64,000 bases of DNA from positions 1 to 64,000 of the forward strand of contig NZ_BAKI01000001.1 of assembly GCF_000583655.1 (NCBI RefSeq). The letters are read 5' to 3'. The stretch is from Lentilactobacillus farraginis DSM 18382 = JCM 14108. Its GTDB lineage: Bacteria > Bacillota > Bacilli > Lactobacillales > Lactobacillaceae. This document shows positions 8,935 to 17,400 of this stretch, one piece after another. The first letter of the stretch is position 1, and each line of letters starts with the position of its first letter. Under the pieces are notes generated by a model. The model was not told the origin of the DNA. It did no database searches and saw only the letters and a program-made list of their open reading frames with translations. A program made the translations under genes and the position numbers.

Positions 8935-9288
8935 CTATTGGTCTTCACGCTTTAATTTATTAATCAAGCGGTCGATCTTATCACCATATTGAACAGACGT
9001 ATCTAATTCAAATTTTATTTCAGGCGTTTTGTAAATACTTAAACGGGAACCAAGTTCGCCCCGGATTAAACCGGTTGCTTTTGTCAATCCCTGCGCAGTT
9101 TTTTCTTCATCGGCTTTATCATCCGAAAGAATACTATAATAAATCGTTGCCTGCTGTAAGTCACCGGTTACTTCAACCCCAGTTAAAGTAACACCCTGAA
9201 CTCTGGGATCCCGAACCCGCTTGAGTAAAATGTCATTAACTTCCCGCTGGATTTCCTGTTCCAAGCGGCCAACGCGATAATGAGCCAT
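8935..9288 (-). CDS. rbfA: 30S ribosome-binding factor RbfA
   Basis: Cold-shock and 30S maturation factor that binds 16S rRNA near the 5' helix. The 117-residue length and single KH-like domain fit the family; recognisable segments are RVGRLEQEIQREVNDIL at the N terminus and VTLTGVEVTGDLQQA in the middle. The ATG at 9288 is preceded by a GGAGGTG site. It is the last gene of rimP-nusA-ylxR-ylxQ-infB-rbfA, 88 bases after infB, and is followed by a terminator-like hairpin. Confidence 0.96.
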   Translation of the reverse strand: MAHYRVGRLEQEIQREVNDILLKRVRDPRVQGVTLTGVEVTGDLQQATIYYSILSDDKADEEKTAQGLTKATGLIRGELGSRLSIYKTPEIKFELDTSVQYGDKIDRLINKLKREDQ

Positions 9289-9376: not shown

Positions 9377-11860
9377 TTACTTAACAGGTACTTCTTTCAT
9401 TACGTAAGCCTCAATCACATCGCCGACTTTGACGTCGTTATAGTCTTTGATTGTTAAACCAAGCTCAAAGCCCTGCTTAACCTGATTAACATCGTCCTTA
9501 AACCGTTTTAAACTGTTTAATTCGCCGGTATATACAACGACACCGTCACGAATCAACCGGACTTTACTGTTTTTATTGACGACACCACTGACAACCATCC
9601 CACCGGCAATTGTGCCGACTTTGGATGCCTTATAAATTTGGCGAACTTCAACTTCACCGGTAACTTCTTCTTTATAAGTCGGTGCCAACATACCTTTCAT
9701 CGCGGACTCAACCTCATCGATTGCGTTATAGATAACCTGATGAAGCCGAATATCAACATGATCGCTATCAGCTTGAGATTTGGCCTGTGGCGTTGGCCGA
9801 ACGTTAAAGCCAATAATAATCGCGTTACTTGCCTCGGCTAACGCAACATCACTTTCATTAATAGCACCAACTCCGGAATGGATAATGTTAACCTTAACAC
9901 CCTTAACCTCAATTTTCTTGAGACTGTTTGCCAATGCCTCAACAGACCCCTGAACATCTGCTTTGATAACGATGTCAACTTCCTTCATTTCACCTTCTTC
10001 AAGTGAATCAAACAAGTTATCCAACGTAACTCGGTTCGTCTTTCGGCGTTCTTCGATCTGGGCTTCCTCAGCTCGTTCTTCACCGACCGAACGGGCTGTC
10101 TTTTCATCTGAGAAGACAACGAACCGGTCACCGGCTTCTGGAACATCGTTTAAGCCGGTAATGGAGACAGGCATTGATGGCGTAACCTTTTTAAGATCGC
10201 GGCCACGTTCATTGGTCATTGTCCGCACTCGGCCAAAGGTGTTCCCAACAACGATCGGATCACCAACCCGCAGTGTCCCCTGCTGAACAAGCAAAGTAGC
10301 GACTGGTCCCTGACCTTGATCAAGCCGGGCTTCAATAACGGAGCCAACGGCTGGCTGATCCGGATCAGCCTTTAATTCGAGCATTTCAGACTCCAGAATA
10401 ATCATATCCAGCAGCTCATCAATATTTTTACCAAATTTAGCAGAAATATCAACAAAAATGGTATCGCCGCCCCAATCCTCCGGAATTAAATTATACTTGC
10501 TTAACTGTTCCGTAACGTGATCCGGATTGGCATCGGGCTTATCAATTTTATTAATTGCGACAATAATTGGTGTCTTTGCTGCCCGAGCATGATTGATTGC
10601 TTCGATTGTTTGTGGCATAACACCATCGTCGGCTGCAACCACCAAAACCGTAATATCCGTAATGTTGGCACCACGGGCTCGCATTTCAGTAAAGGCAGCA
10701 TGCCCCGGAGTATCAAGAAATGTGATGACATTATCACCGTGACGAACCTGATAAGCACCAATTGCCTGGGTAATCCCGCCAGCTTCACCGGCAGTAATGT
10801 GAGAATGGCGCAAATGATCCAACAGCGTAGTCTTACCATGATCAACGTGACCCATGATTGTTACAACCGGTGGTCGTGGTACCAAATGCTTGGCATTCTT
10901 CATTTCCTTTTCAAAAATTTCATCCAAATTGGAAAGATCTTCATGAACCTTTTCTTTGGCATCAATCCCATAATCAGCAGCTAAAATTTCAATCGTATCC
11001 TTATCAAGGGATTGATTTTGATTAACCATCACGCCAAGCATAAACAGCTTTTTAACAATTTCAGCCGGCTCCCGGTGCAAAATCTTTCCGAGATCCTGAG
11101 CATTCATACCATCTTCATATTCCAACACAGATGGCAGTGGTCGGGATTTTCGTTCCGGTGCACCATGATGTTCAACCTGGCGAAGTCGTTGATTCTGTTG
11201 CTTACGCTGCTTCTTGTTTCGCTTTTTATTGGCCTTGCGTGAGCCACCACGTCGATTTAGGCTGCCGCCAAATCGGCCGCTGCCGGTATTTCGATTATTA
11301 TTACTGCGATTTTCATTACTGGTATTTGAATGATTCTGACGGTTTGGCTGGCTGCTGTTACCAGTCCGGTTTGTTGATTGACTTTGTGAAGTCGAATTGT
11401 TGGTTTGGACATTACCAGTCCGCGAGCGATTATCATTGTTTCTTTGGGAATGGTTGTTTCGATTTTGATGATTTCGCTCATTGGCAGTCCCTTGATTATT
11501 AGTGTGACGCCCCTGCGAGGAACTGTTCCGATTTTCAAAGCGACCGTTTGAATGTTGATTACGGCTTTCGCTTCGAGAATGATTGGATTGCTCGTTATGT
11601 TGTTTTTGATGATCGCCCTGACGATTCGTTTGCGAACCATGTTGAGAACTTGACTGATTATTATGATTATTTCGAGGCCGATTGGTTGAAGTAGATTGAT
11701 GACGCTTCTGAAAAATTTGTCGAATTTGTTTTTCTTGATTTTCATCAACTGTCGACATATGATTCTTCACATCAATTCCACGTCTACTAGCTTCGTCGAT
11801 CATCTTTTTGCTGGAGATATTGAGTTCTTTGGCTAATTCATAAATTCGCTTTTTCCCCAT
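9377..11860 (-). CDS. infB: Translation initiation factor IF-2
   Basis: GTPase that positions initiator tRNA on the 30S subunit. The protein is 827 residues. An IF2N domain (about 1-50) is followed by a ~170-residue low-complexity stretch of Asn, Ser, Gln, Arg and His, then a second IF2N domain, then the G domain with GHVDHGKTT near residue 337, DTPGH and NKID, and then domains II-IV ending in [11 protein letters not shown]. The ATG at 11860 has a GGGAG site and starts 4 bases after ylxQ ends, so the two are likely translationally coupled. Confidence 0.98.
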
Positions 11861-11864
11861 ATCA

Positions 11865-12182
11865 TCACTCTCCCTTTATCCTATTTGTTAATTCAATCAT
11901 TTTTTTTGAAATACCAGGATCCTTGATCCCAATAATTGTTCTTTTCATACCAATAGCGTTACTTAACACTTCTTTAGTGTACATTGAATTGACAGGTACA
12001 TGATAGTAATTTGACTTGTCCAAGAATTTCTTACGAGTTGCCGCACCGGCATCGGCCGCAATAAACAAGAAATGGACCTTTCCGCTTCTAATTTCGGTCA
12101 AAAGGGTGTCTTCACCCGAAACCAGTTGATTCGCTCTGCGGGAAATTCCCAGAAAGTTTAAAACGGCTTGTTTACTTTCCAT
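11865..12182 (-). CDS. ylxQ: YlxQ, L7Ae-family RNA-binding protein
   Basis: Small ribosomal L7Ae/L30e-like protein with a kink-turn-binding fold, encoded between nusA/ylxR and infB in most Firmicutes; its exact role is not settled. I chose ATG 12182 ([18 protein letters not shown]), giving 105 residues; the longer frame lies inside ylxR. Visible family features are the N-terminal [16 protein letters not shown] and the [13 protein letters not shown] segment. It overlaps the restored 3' end of ylxR by 11 bases and ends 4 bases before infB. Confidence 0.9.
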
Positions 12183-12470
12183 TCTCAAACAACTCTTTTC
12201 GAGCCTGTTTATGATCAACGTAAGCAATTAAGTCATCATAAAAGTTATCTGCTAATTCCGTTGAAAAGACCTTTTCAAAAACATGTTCTGCTTTGGCTTT
12301 TTTGGCGACCTCCACATTAATGGAGATATAGCCCCACGGCCCGATTTTTTCCCGGTTTCATCAATTGAAACCTGGCCTTCAGCGTCACGGACAATTCTAA
12401 TCAGTTCCTTTTTAGGAGCCATTTCACCCGTCACAATATCTTTTCGCATCGGAATTTTTCGTTTTTTCAT
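12172..12470 (-). CDS. ylxR: YlxR family RNA-binding protein, apparent frameshift
   Basis: Small nucleic-acid-binding protein encoded in the nusA-infB operon. The N terminus MKKRKIPMRKDIVTGEM carries the conserved R-K-C/D region and is followed by KKSGRGA. Family members read GRGAY, and the next frame gives YISINVEVAKKAKAEHVFEKVF and continues to a stop at 12172. The break is at about 12330, where one T is missing. With that base restored the protein is 99 residues, as expected, and overlaps the ylxQ start. The ATG at 12470 follows AGGAGGCGATC, 20 bases after nusA. Confidence 0.88.
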
Positions 12471-12489: not shown

Positions 12490-13770
12490 TTAATCTTGAT
12501 CCGATGACGAATCTTCATTTGATGAATCATTACTTGTCTCACTGGATGAGTTCTCATCCGTTGTTGACTCATCATCTTGAACATCGTCTTGAAGATCTTC
12601 ATCGGATTCAGTTTGCACTTCTTGGTTGCTACTGTCAACATCATTGTTATCATTCTCAGTAGGCTCGGCATCAACCGAAGAATCATCCGCTGCTACCGTT
12701 TCTTGCGCCTTTTGGGCTTTTTCAGCCAAAAATTCTTTGGCTTCAGTTTCTGATTTGATATCAATTTTAAAGCCGGTCAATTTTGCAGCCAACCGCGCGT
12801 TTTGACCTCGTTTACCAATTGCAAGTGATAATTGATAATCCGGAACGATAACCGTGCATGCCCGTTCATTATCATCGTCAAAGATAACATCAATTACTTC
12901 AGCAGGATTCAAAGCATTGGCGATGTAGCGGGCATCATCTTCATCCCACTCAACAATATCCATATTTTCACCGTGAAGTTCATTCACAATTGTTTGGACT
13001 CGTTGACCCTTGGGACCAACTGCTGTTCCCACCGGATCAATATCCGAATTGTTGGAGCGAACAGCTACTTTGGCACGGTCGCCGGCTTCCCGGGCAATTG
13101 AAACAATTTCAACAGTGCCATCATAGATTTCAGGAATTTCCTGTTCAAACAAGCGTTTCAACATGCCGGGATCCGTTCGGCTCACAAACACCTGAGGACC
13201 CTTTGTCGCATTTTCAACCCGAGTTACATAAACCTTTAGACGCTCCTGTGGCCGATAAACTTCATTTGGCATCTGATCTCGGGGACCCATAACGGCTTCG
13301 ACTTTATCCAAATTAATATAAACAAATCTGGTATCCTGACGCTCGACGGTCCCGGTTACCAAGTCATCCTCATACTTTGAATACTCATCAAAAATGTTTT
13401 CCCGTTCGGCTTCTCGGACTCGCTGCATGATCACCTGCTTGGCCGTTTGGGCAGCAATTCGGCCGAAATTCTTAGGGGTCACTTCAAATTTAATTTCATC
13501 ACCAATTTCATAACCCTTATTAATCTGCAGGGCATCATCCAAAGATACCTGCATTTGATCATCGGTAACCGTTTCAACAACTGTTTTAACTGCATAAACG
13601 TGCATCTCACCCTTTGTACCGTCAAAGGAAACCTCAACGTTTTGGGCCTGACCATAGTTTCGCTTGTAGGCAGAAACCAGCGCCGCCTGCAATGCCTCTA
13701 TAACGACTTCTTTTTTAATTCCTTTTTCTTCTTCAAGGGCCGACAGGGCACCTAAAAGTTCTTTACTCAT
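12490..13770 (-). CDS. nusA: Transcription termination/antitermination protein NusA
   Basis: Binds RNA polymerase and modulates pausing, termination and antitermination. The protein is 426 residues: an N-terminal polymerase-binding domain (MSKELLGALSALEEEKGI), an S1 domain (about 130-200, with LVTGTVERQD), two KH domains (AVGPKGQRVQ near 250 and IGKRGQNARLA near 320), then a ~80-residue tail dominated by Asp, Glu, Ser and Asn ending SSSDQD. The acidic tail replaces the acidic repeats of proteobacterial NusA. The ATG at 13770 follows GGAGGAGAC, 14 bases after rimP. Confidence 0.97.
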   Translation of the reverse strand: MSKELLGALSALEEEKGIKKEVVIEALQAALVSAYKRNYGQAQNVEVSFDGTKGEMHVYAVKTVVETVTDDQMQVSLDDALQINKGYEIGDEIKFEVTPKNFGRIAAQTAKQVIMQRVREAERENIFDEYSKYEDDLVTGTVERQDTRFVYINLDKVEAVMGPRDQMPNEVYRPQERLKVYVTRVENATKGPQVFVSRTDPGMLKRLFEQEIPEIYDGTVEIVSIAREAGDRAKVAVRSNNSDIDPVGTAVGPKGQRVQTIVNELHGENMDIVEWDEDDARYIANALNPAEVIDVIFDDDNERACTVIVPDYQLSLAIGKRGQNARLAAKLTGFKIDIKSETEAKEFLAEKAQKAQETVAADDSSVDAEPTENDNNDVDSSNQEVQTESDEDLQDDVQDDESTTDENSSSETSNDSSNEDSSSDQD

Positions 13771-13784
13771 TATTAAGTCTCCTC

Positions 13785-14258
13785 CTAAAATTGAATTGCA
13801 AGTCGTGATTTGGCAATTAGATTTTTCGGAATAGTTACGGTATCGTTTTTACCCCACTTGTCATTCTGCAAGACAAGCTGATCTGAATCAATGGATTGAA
13901 GGAAGCCTTCAAAAACCTTCTCACCATTTAAATTTTGATACAGGGAAACGTGTACGTACTCACCCACTGCCTGCTCAAGCTCCTGATCGTTTCGCAACGG
14001 ACGCTCAGCACCCGGAGACGAAACTTCCAAAAAATACTGCTGCGGGATTGGATCCGGATCCATCTCATCAAGCTTTTCGCTCAACTCATCACTGACCAAA
14101 ACGCAGTCATCAATTGTGATGCCGCCTTTTTTATCAATGTATACCCGTAGGTACCAACTTTTGTTTTCTTTAACAAATTCAACATCAAATAAATAAAAAG
14201 CATGTTTTTCTAAAATCGGCTTCACAACTTGTTTGACCGTTTCAACGACATTGCTCAA
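13785..14258 (-). CDS. rimP: Ribosome maturation factor RimP
   Basis: Assists 30S subunit assembly. The 157-residue protein matches the family: N-terminal domain with VEFVKENKSWYLRVYIDK and the conserved DCVLVSDELSEKLDEMDP and YFLEVSSPGAERPL segments, then a C-terminal Sm-like domain. The start appears to be TTG 14258, about 8 bases after TAGGAGG. It is the first gene of the operon through rbfA. Its promoter lies at 14336-14364, and a strong hairpin with a T tract sits in the leader. Confidence 0.95.
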   Translation of the reverse strand: MSNVVETVKQVVKPILEKHAFYLFDVEFVKENKSWYLRVYIDKKGGITIDDCVLVSDELSEKLDEMDPDPIPQQYFLEVSSPGAERPLRNDQELEQAVGEYVHVSLYQNLNGEKVFEGFLQSIDSDQLVLQNDKWGKNDTVTIPKNLIAKSRLAIQF

Positions 14259-14285
14259 AAAATAGGCCTCCTAAAATTATCCATT

Positions 14286-14312
14286 AAAAAGAGCGAGCAT
14301 TTCTGCTCACTC
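14286..14312 (-). terminator. Terminator hairpin inside the rimP leader
   Basis: On the minus strand GAGTGAGCA, a GAAA tetraloop and TGCTCGCTC form a 9-bp stem followed by TTTTT. It would end polC transcripts, but it also lies downstream of the rimP promoter (-10 at 14336-14341), so transcripts starting there must pass through it within about 20-45 nt. It is therefore a candidate attenuator for the nusA operon. Confidence 0.85.
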
Positions 14313-14335
14313 CTTACAAGTTATTTAGTAAATAA

Positions 14336-14364
14336 AGTATACCATAAACCAATCACTTGTACAA
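14336..14364 (-). promoter_or_regulatory. SigA-type promoter of rimP-nusA-infB operon
   Basis: On the minus strand TTGTAC (14359-14364), a 17-base spacer, then TATACT (14336-14341). It lies between the polC stop and rimP, about 80 bases upstream of the rimP start. Confidence 0.75.
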
Positions 14365-14406: not shown

Positions 14407-17400
14407 TTACATCATGTCAAATAAGCTTAGTTGATTTTCATCCGGAAGACCATCTAATACATGATTTTCAGTCATAAAGTCAATCAGGGTCTTTGAAACT
14501 TTTCCCCGCTTGGACAAATCTTCTTTTGAAATAAACGGCTTATCTTCCCGAGCAGCCACAATCTGTTTGGCAACGTTTAAGCCAAGTCCGGGAACAGAAT
14601 TAAATGGTGCAATTAAATTCTTTCCATCAATCAACCATTCATTGGCAGCCGACTTCTTTAAATCAACCATCTTAAAATCAAAACCACGTTCCAACATTTC
14701 GTTAGCTAATTCAAGAACCGTCAATAAATTCTTCTCTTTTGCGGAAGCTTCCATACCTTTATCGTTGATTTGTCTCATCGCATTTTTAACGGCTTCTTTT
14801 CCCCGGCACATTGACACAATATCAAAATCGTCTGCCCGAACAGAGAAATAAGCGGCATAGTAAACCAATGGGAAATAAACCTTGAAGTAAGCGATTCGTA
14901 ATGCCATCAAAATATACGCAGCGGCATGGGCTCTTGGGAACATATACTTAATTTTTAAACAGGAGTCAATATACCACTCCGGGATCTTGGCTTTTCGCAT
15001 TTCTTCCTGCCAATCATCCGGAATTCCCCGGCCGTGACGAACACTTTCCATAATTTGAAACGACAGCTCAGAATCCAAGCCCCACTGAATTAAATCAGTC
15101 ATAATGTTGTCACGACAACCAATCACATTGGCAATTGTGGCAGTCCCGTTTTTAATCAACTCATCTGCATTGCCCAGCCAAACATCAGTCCCGTGAGACA
15201 AGCCGGAAATTTGCAGTAATTCTGAATAATTACTTGGATGGGTCTGTTCAAGCATTCCCCGAACAAATCGAGTCCCGAATTCCGGAACACCCAGTGTACC
15301 TGTCTTAGATTGAATCTGATCTTCTGTGACACCAAGGATTTTAGGACTTGAGAAAATTGACATAACCCCTGGGTCATCCATTGGAATTGTCTTCGGATTA
15401 ATGCCCGATAAATCCTGTAGCATCCGAATCATCGTTGGATCATCATGTCCCAAAATATCAATTTTTAAAATATTGTCGTGAATTGAATGGAAATCAAAGT
15501 GGGTCGTTTTCCAGGCTGCCGACTGATCATCGGCCGGATATTGAATTGGTGTAAAATCGTAAATATCCATATCTGCCGGGACAACAATAATTCCAGCCGG
15601 GTGTTGCCCGGTCGTTCGTTTGACGCCCGTGGCACCCTTGGCTAACCGGTCTTCTTCCGCCTGGCGGTAAGTTCTGCCCTTGTCACGTTCATAGGCCTTA
15701 ACATAGCCATACGCCGTTTTATCGGCAACTGTTCCAATTGTTCCGGCCCGAAAAACATTTTTCTCACCAAACAACACTTTTGTGTAGTTATGGGCAATTG
15801 GTTGATAGTCACCGGAAAAGTTTAAATCAATATCCGGTACCTTATTACCGGTAAAGCCCAAGAAGGTTTCAAACGGAATGTTGTGGCCGTCACCAATCAT
15901 TTGCGTGCCGCATTCCGGGCATTTTTTCCTTGGTAAATCGTATCCGGAACTGTATTCACCCTTGGTAAAGAATTCCGTATGACGGCAGTGCGGGCAACGA
16001 TAGTGCGGCGGTAACGGGTTAACTTCTGTAATCCCCGTTAGCGTGGCAACCAAGCTGGACCCAACCGAACCTCGGGAACCAACCAAATAACCGTCTTTAT
16101 TACTTTTAGCTACCAACCGTTGCGCAATCAAATAAATTACCGAGAACCCATTTCCAATAATACTTTTAAGTTCCGTTTTTAAACGATCGTCAACAATTTT
16201 AGGCAATGGATCGCCATACCATTGGTGGGCAGTTGTCATTGTTCGTTCTCGAATTTCGTCTTCGGCGCCTGCCATTTTCGGTGTATAAAGACGGTCCTTC
16301 AATGGATGAACATCTTCGATTGCATCAGCAATCTTATTTGTGTTTGCAACGACAATTTCCTTTGCCTTTTCAGGCCCCAAAAATGAAAAATCATCAAGCA
16401 TTTCATTGGTAGTTAAAAAGTGTAAATCCGGTAATTCCTGACGATTTAGCGGGTTGGCACCCCCCTGCGAATTAATTAAAATCTTTCGATAGATATAATC
16501 TTCCGGATTAAGATAGTGAACATCACCAGTAGCAACCACCGGCTTTTGAAGTTCCTCTCCCAGTTTCACAATATTGCTCAAAATTTCTTCCAAATTAGTT
16601 TCATCGGAAATTAAGTGACTTTCAATCAATGGCGCATAAGCCGTCTTGGCTGGACTTCTAAATAATCGTAAAAACCGGCTTTTTGCCGGGCTTCATCCAT
16701 GCCTTTTTGCATCATCGCCGTAAAGACTTCGCCAGAGGCGCAGGCTGAACCGACAATGATACCTTCCCGATACTTTTCCAGTTGGGTTCGTGGCACTCGC
16801 GGCACCCTGAAAAAGTAATCAACATTAGATAAGGAAACAATCTTAAACATGTTTTTCAGCCCAGTCTGAGTCTTCGCTAAAATAATTGCGTGAGACGGAC
16901 GGGCATGCTTATAAGCATCGTTTTCAGTCATGTGGTCATTTAACTCATCATGATAAACGATTCCGTAACGATCTTCGGCATCTTTCAAAAACAGATAGTT
17001 AAGATGCCCGGTCGTCTCGGCATCATAAATCGCCCGGTGATGATGTTCCAAATTGACATCAAATTTTTTAGCCAACGTATTCAATCGATATCCCCGCATA
17101 TTGGGATACAAGAAGCGCGCCAACGTTAATGTATCGATAATGGGATTCTTAATTTCCGACATCCCATGGCGAACATAGCCGGTATTCATAAACCCAATAT
17201 CAAAAGTAACGTTATGCCCAACAACAATTGCGTCACCACAAAATTCTCGGAATAATTTGAATACCTCTTCTTCAGATTTGGATCCCTGCACCATCTCATC
17301 AGTAATGGAAGTTAAATTCGTTGTCTGTTCGGAAAGGTGAAAACCAGGATCAATAAATTCCTCAAATTGATCAATCACGTTATTATTTTTCATTTTAACA

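Follow-up and report, generated by a model that had tools for sequence, protein, structure and literature searches.

A putative leader terminator of the rimP-nusA-infB operon in Lentilactobacillus farraginis, with probable feedback by NusA

Results

The stretch of DNA analyzed here, referred to below as the window, comprises the first 64,000 nucleotides of contig NZ_BAKI01000001.1 from L. farraginis DSM 18382 = JCM 14108. Its minus strand carries polC (present as two ORFs), rimP, nusA, a ylxQ-like gene, infB, rbfA, and truB, wherein the names polC, ylxQ-like, infB (IF2), rbfA, and truB are our assignments, presumed from sequence likeness. The first gene of the operon, rimP (13785–14258, minus strand), begins with a TTG start codon and encodes a 157-amino-acid protein that was checked against Pfam. 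On the same strand lie nusA (12490–13770; 426 amino acids), whose product gives Pfam matches to the NusA_N, S1, and KH domains and has an acidic tail, and three genes taken from the ORF list, namely the ylxQ-like gene of the L7Ae family (11865–12227), infB (9377–11860), and rbfA (8935–9288). A NusA similarity search placed L. hilgardii, L. raoultii, and L. parafarraginis nearest among the matches listed. The NusA tail beyond approximately residue 350 (12490–12720) is long, acidic, and rich in Ser and Asn, and the alignments of many relatives end there. The two polC ORFs (18728–16626 and 16629–14407) are in different frames, with the break at 16626–16660, and we judge this by eye to be a frameshift inside one gene; it is probably a sequence error, given that the gene is essential and that the assembly consists of 129 contigs.

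The gap of 148 nt between polC and rimP holds a promoter, a hairpin, a T-run, the sequence AATGG, and an AGGAGG element. An earlier note on this DNA had proposed a consensus promoter (TTGTAC-17-TATACT) for rimP-nusA-infB, and these elements are indeed present on the minus strand. The −35 element TTGTAC (14364–14359), recognized from its sequence and from its near-constant distance to the hairpin in relatives, is separated by a 17-nt spacer from TATACT (14341–14336), which together with the TG at 14344–14343 forms an extended −10 element (TGG-TATACT, 14336–14344) that is evident from the sequence, a promoter scan, and relatives. Transcription is predicted to start at the A at 14329, 7 nt past the −10 element. 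A generic scan found 29 promoter-like sites where 22.3 ± 5.1 were expected, which is barely over chance, and therefore the promoter by itself is weak evidence; it is because promoter and hairpin are conserved among relatives that they rise above chance. In the 27-nt interval between the T-run and rimP, the top promoter-like score is 7.8, which is under the shuffle mean of 8.7 and gives little indication of a second start there.

Reading from the promoter (14364–14336), there follow 23 nt, the hairpin (14312–14291), the T-run, 27 nt, and rimP. The 5′ arm GAGTGAGCA (14304–14312) and the 3′ arm TGCTCGCTC (14291–14299) were identified by sequence, by folding, and by a match to the covariance model R2 described below. 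They enclose a GAAA loop (14300–14303; seen by folding and leader comparison), which we take to be a GNRA-type tetraloop. Past the T-run (14286–14290) comes AATGG (14281–14285), in which T14283 and G14282 occupy positions 8 and 9 past the stem. The rimP Shine-Dalgarno sequence AGGAGG (14267–14272) is not within the hairpin. The stem has nine pairs, one being U-G, and the hairpin alone folds with −15.2 kcal/mol (z −5.3), a value that 0 of 200 shuffles match; the 48-nt stretch 14328–14281 gives −18.2 kcal/mol (z −5.6). Thus, the observation of a promoter, a 9-bp hairpin, and a T tract ahead of rimP is confirmed. The RNA 3′ end would be expected at about 14282–14284. The stem can lengthen into the T-run via U-G and A-U pairs, and a generic terminator scan did not list the window hairpin, probably because that scan lengthens the stem into the T-run. 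No riboswitch, T-box, or other known RNA matched Rfam at the gathering score in the window, and a subthreshold hit to the L20-leader (17.9 bits versus 58.7 needed) was taken as generic terminator likeness.

We then compared leaders from 80 loci picked solely by NusA similarity, which together with the window make 81, using the exact pattern GAGTGAGCA-N2-8-TGCTCRCTC-TTTTT at most 400 nt upstream of rimP. The motif, which demands the T-run, is present upstream of rimP in 79 of the 81 leaders, and the two that lack it are Enterococcus leaders with close variants. The spacing from T-run to rimP is 25 to 35 nt in 78 of the 79 and 153 nt in L. fungorum. In the latter (L011, 2235–2507), approximately 125 extra nt lie between the hairpin and the rimP ribosome-binding site, and a second possible hairpin can be seen there by eye.

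The best promoter precedes the hairpin by 23 to 30 nt in 72 of 75 leaders from four groups, to which three Lactobacillus loci (L029, L042, and L059) were assigned by resemblance. This distance is 23 to 25 nt in Lentilactobacillus (18/18), 24 to 25 nt in Secundilactobacillus (13/13), 26 to 27 nt in Lactiplantibacillus-type leaders (15/15), and 29 to 30 nt in 26 of 29 Levilactobacillus leaders, with 61 nt in the other 3. Promoter scores average 11.5 over the 18 Lentilactobacillus leaders (shuffles 8.7 ± 1.2), and the Lactiplantibacillus-type score of 9.8 is less than 1 SD from its shuffles (8.8 ± 1.1). Promoter, hairpin, and rimP move as one unit. A promoter located upstream of the terminator is what would be expected of a NusA-autoregulated attenuator, and the conserved order of promoter, hairpin, and rimP bears out the suggestion that transcripts from this promoter would have to cross a terminator before reaching the genes.

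The earlier note had also allowed that the hairpin might be the polC terminator only, in which case the rimP operon would be set by promoter strength and a constant, unregulated read-through. Scanning up to 260 nt past polC, we saw no other terminator-like hairpin before the promoter in any of the 18 Lentilactobacillus and 15 Lactiplantibacillus-type loci, nor in 23 of 29 Levilactobacillus and 11 of 13 Secundilactobacillus loci; the window hairpin itself begins 94 nt past polC. Because the scan found no other such hairpin in Lentilactobacillus, the window hairpin probably ends polC transcripts too, and this part of the proposal is plausible as a second job. As a sole role, it sits poorly with the leader comparison that the earlier note had called for, wherein the spacing between hairpin and rimP is nearly fixed but the hairpin lies anywhere from 58 to 2387 nt past the polC stop (the top value belonging to L037, whose polC end is provisional). 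This distance is 450 to 1414 nt in the 29 Levilactobacillus loci, and the L. brevis locus (L062) has a polC terminator and an extra ORF ahead of the promoter, hairpin, and rimP. The hairpin thus keeps to rimP even where as much as 1.4 kb separates it from polC or an ORF intervenes, which marks it as a leader element. Moreover, 6 of the 29 Levilactobacillus loci have a separate polC terminator-like hairpin and still retain the one at rimP, and eight polC hairpins have little sequence in common apart from two that are near-identical; the hairpin beside rimP is conserved across the phylum. We consider it unlikely, although not negligibly so, that ending polC transcripts is the only role; the leader-attenuator and polC-terminator roles are compatible, and both can hold. 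The extra ORF of L. brevis (L062, 1901–2400) has about 90 codons and appears hydrophobic by eye, and L021 has what looks by eye like a similar one.

Among the Lactobacillaceae, we found the exact pattern in 288 of 397 genomes, which represent 28 of 40 genera and include 23 of 24 from the genus of the window with its own genome counted; the remaining 109 genomes lack it, and 12 of the 40 genera have no genome with it. A reversed-pattern control gave none among the matches listed for Lactobacillaceae genomes. For 30 loci picked by the exact pattern only, rimP lies within about 90 nt downstream in all 30. Some hairpin was found by scanning in 127 of 130 loci, of which a few (e.g., L175 and L176) sit far upstream and are not the leader hairpin. 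An anchored comparison covered 211 loci, with 11 lacking the anchor dropped (L162, L172–L176, L183, L185–L187, and L202) and 79 of 86 genus labels remaining; the dropped loci have hairpins of different letters or none picked up by the scan. Because the anchor pattern presets most stem letters, the stem columns of this comparison are not independent. Independent support comes from the genome count of 288/397, the 79/81 leaders, and the phylum-wide placement beside rimP.

Intrinsic terminators free the RNA around the eighth base, and the pause consensus includes a pyrimidine-G step. At positions 8 and 9 past the stem, all 79 motif-bearing lactobacillar leaders have T and G, which the pattern did not demand. 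The post-stem sequence there is TTTTT-A-A/T-TG, with the single exception form TTTTTCTTG, and in other Lactobacillales the T/G is not universal (e.g., TTTTTCGGCA). This invariance suggests that a pause may be built in at the release point.

In other Bacilli, the same site mostly carries GAGTGGG...CCC[AG]CTC followed by TTT, a pattern found in 117 of 151 genomes of the class and in 0 of 12 of the order to which the window belongs (own genome counted). A broader pattern (GAGTGRG...CYCRCTCTT) occurs at 99 places in 87 of 119 Bacillota genomes and is missing from 32. RimP was found in 114 of the 119 genomes and in 85 of the 87 with the broader pattern; in 82 of these 85, one place precedes the RimP domain by 60 to 358 nt and shares its strand. 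There are 17 further places, two of which (G709 and G710) adjoin rimP with only an opposite-strand match, and 29 rimP-bearing genomes are without the pattern. The GAGTG/CACTC stem is usually single-copy and adjoins rimP in most sampled Bacillota. In the loci of one genus (g3, which we guess to be streptococci) and in a few others, the scan picked up either hairpins of different letters or none.

To relate the two forms, we used covariance models. The first (R1), constructed from 40 Bacilli leaders (40 of 41 class representatives, Lactobacillales excluded), missed the window hairpin; the likely reason is that the model is narrow, with 7 bp in its stem, a middle G-C pair that never varies, and mostly TTTC. 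The second (R2) comprised 35 leaders, with other Lactobacillales included and Lactobacillaceae excluded, and it found the window hairpin with 41.5 bits and an E value of 1.1e-9 in the window search. In the 2.84-Mb genome, the hairpin has an E value of 4.9e-8, the next place has 0.014, and the hairpin is the sole strong match besides its own opposite-strand mirror image (19.2 bits in the window search). Among the weaker matches in the same genome, L213–L215 look by eye like ordinary terminators. R2 matches 164 of 201 Lactobacillaceae genomes, in some at several places, and therefore its strength lies in the rank of the rimP site and not in exclusiveness. Homology to other Bacilli leaders was thus detected with R2, built without Lactobacillaceae, and not with R1.

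The R2 alignment drew on 13 of 41 class and 22 of 24 order representatives, and its pair counts hinge on that choice. With this choice, 98.0% of its cells are paired, as opposed to 93.4% for shuffles and no more than 64.8% for slid versions, and its covariation is 0.190 versus 0.110 ± 0.012 in shuffles. Pair 6 is A-U in 18, G-C in 16, and unpaired in 1 of the 35 leaders. A weak measure is the number of pairs with both partners changed (3), which 65 of 500 shuffles attain; the paired change is mostly at pair 6 and may be one event on the tree. From these sequences, we read the lactobacillar stem as a probable paired-change variant of the hairpin of other Bacilli.

Discussion

The anatomy of this leader, its conserved position, its paired changes, and its homology to the leaders of other Bacilli are observed, and with considerable though not full confidence we interpret the hairpin as an intrinsic leader terminator of rimP-nusA-infB that is subject to NusA feedback and likely stops polC transcripts as well. 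By analogy with the B. subtilis case as reviewed, the region is probably a rimP leader terminator working as a NusA feedback attenuator. For L. farraginis, we infer the following start site, termination in vivo, and NusA response. RNA polymerase would start near 14329 and transcribe approximately 17 nt before entering the hairpin. Formation of the hairpin and T-run would then either release a leader RNA approximately 47 nt long or give way to read-through into rimP. NusA made from the operon could stabilize the hairpin and the terminal pause, such that high NusA would cause more premature termination and less operon mRNA, constituting negative feedback. Since no aptamer or general alternative fold was found in the leader, it is natural to assume that sensing would fall to the elongation complex itself, and NusA is the obvious candidate factor to act with it. 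Transcripts running on from polC would probably be halted by the same hairpin. The main objection to a large NusA effect is that the hairpin looks strong (approximately −15 to −18 kcal/mol); with such a stem and T-run, it seems less NusA-dependent than the weak B. subtilis terminators.

A different possibility is that the leader terminates under another signal, such that RimP or some other reader recognizes the GAGTG/CACTC stem and the general action of NusA is not involved. The stem letters are kept beyond the needs of pairing, and Naville & Gautheret favored a specific stem reader, for which RimP is possible, in the available text of their paper (PMC2965389). Nevertheless, NusA is reported to boost termination in the B. 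subtilis leader, as described in the accessible portion of a review (PMC12288461), and some leaders, including the putatively streptococcal ones, have different stem letters. We regard control by another reader as improbable, somewhat more so than a role confined to polC. It is a tentative speculation, which we hold to be doubtful, that the GAGTG/CACTC letters are a dedicated site for NusA or another operon product within a terminator and that, in a derived version, the 9-bp stem and the invariant T/G at the release point in Lactobacillaceae replace the interrupted T-run.

An alternative fold, in which ACTC upstream of the hairpin would capture the GAGT of the 5′ arm and so block the terminator, is very improbable as a general device. 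Twelve of the 79 genus representatives have ACTC no more than 25 nt upstream, which exceeds shuffles (2.3 ± 1.5), and 35 of 79 can tie up 4 or more bases of the arm in an upstream fold that reaches −2 kcal/mol or better, but ACTC is missing from 67 of 79, and the upstream fold equals the best 5% of shuffles in just 6 of 79, where about 4 are expected. In the window, the upstream fold reaches only −1.6 kcal/mol (p 0.37). An alternative helix is therefore found in some genera, and neither generally nor in the window. Lactiplantibacillus has the palindrome ACTCGTTAACGAGT (L025, L027, L029, L031, and relatives), which shares the initial bases of the 5′ arm and might delay folding of the terminator in that genus, without being general.

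Translation-coupled attenuation through a leader peptide (MLALFNG) starting at an ATG in the hairpin can be dismissed as virtually implausible: the NTG where loop meets stem reads ATG in 68 of 79 leaders and the window has AAGGAG upstream of it, but 49 of the 68 ATGs are an automatic product of a GNRA loop and the stem TG, the codon is CTG in 3 and TTG in 8 of the 79, the peptide varies in length and is altered by common changes (GCT/ACT and AAT/ATT), Levilactobacillus leaders are without the upstream AAGGAG, and so neither a conserved start codon nor a coding pattern is seen across the 79 leaders.

Returning to NusA feedback on a leader terminator, one operon makes NusA, IF2, and two ribosome-maturation factors, and tuning of its leader would therefore couple transcription termination to translation capacity. 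The description of the hairpin across the phylum is compact, comprising the same place, mostly a single copy, and constant letters at the base of the stem. In lactobacilli, the stem letters and the T-run are separable, making this leader a test case for a stem conserved by letter.

Comparison with known leader systems

The Rfam rimP model (RF01770), scored with stricter filters for genomes, exceeded its cut-off in 0 of 61 Bacilli genomes including that of the window, with one weaker match, and among 14 controls it matches E. coli alone. Among the literature matches listed, none that we saw gave transcript data on a rimP leader from Lactobacillus, and a term search of Bacillus termination papers, in the portions available, returned no passage on the rimP leader.

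The closest published description, so far as the accessible text of Naville & Gautheret 2010 shows (PMC2965389), is the rimP-leader, which has a conserved stem and no antiterminator. Those authors argued for a specific reader of the stem, with NusA as the best candidate and RimP as possible. Both leaders have a short terminator right before rimP-nusA-infB, with a G-rich 5′ arm, a C-rich 3′ arm, and a T-stretch, and without a visible antiterminator or larger conserved element. The stem motifs differ, being GGGc(...)gCCC in the rimP-leader and GAGCa(...)tGCTC in the window, where the middle G-C has become A-U, a paired change. The window sequence nevertheless places a predicted intrinsic terminator directly upstream of rimP in rimP-nusA-infB, and the hairpin is the lactobacillar form of the rimP-leader.

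The leaders fetched from other Bacilli, a set that does not include the B. subtilis leader by name, have a 7-bp GAGTGGG core and in most cases an interrupted T-run (e.g., TTTCG), whereas the window has a 9-bp stem and TTTTT. Mondal 2016 is reportedly the primary paper on NusA autoregulation. Together with Irnov 2010 and Bylund 2011, it is cited among these leader papers in the portions available. According to the accessible part of a 2025 review (PMC12288461), B. subtilis NusA is autoregulated through NusA-stimulated termination in its own leader and is said to count most at weak terminators. The B. subtilis leader and that of the window precede the same operon and have a leader terminator, with feedback proposed for the window.

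In S. agalactiae, RNA-seq revealed termination 31 nt past the start in the gbs0413-0418 leader, and NusA feedback was proposed, as given in the available text (PMC4448216). Premature termination between start and rimP, predicted for the window, is common to the two leaders, and the termination point is at 31 nt there versus approximately 47 nt predicted here. The proposal of the earlier note that the leader might be a feedback attenuator thus agrees with the published B. subtilis and S. agalactiae leaders, from which a dependence on NusA would carry over to L. farraginis by analogy. The leader belongs to a known kind of attenuator, of which it is a lineage-specific form. Finally, the corresponding E. 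coli operon, metY-nusA-infB, is under NusA feedback as cited in the accessible parts of two papers (PMC4448216 and PMC2965389), and the operon of the window would share with it the NusA-mediated feedback that we propose.
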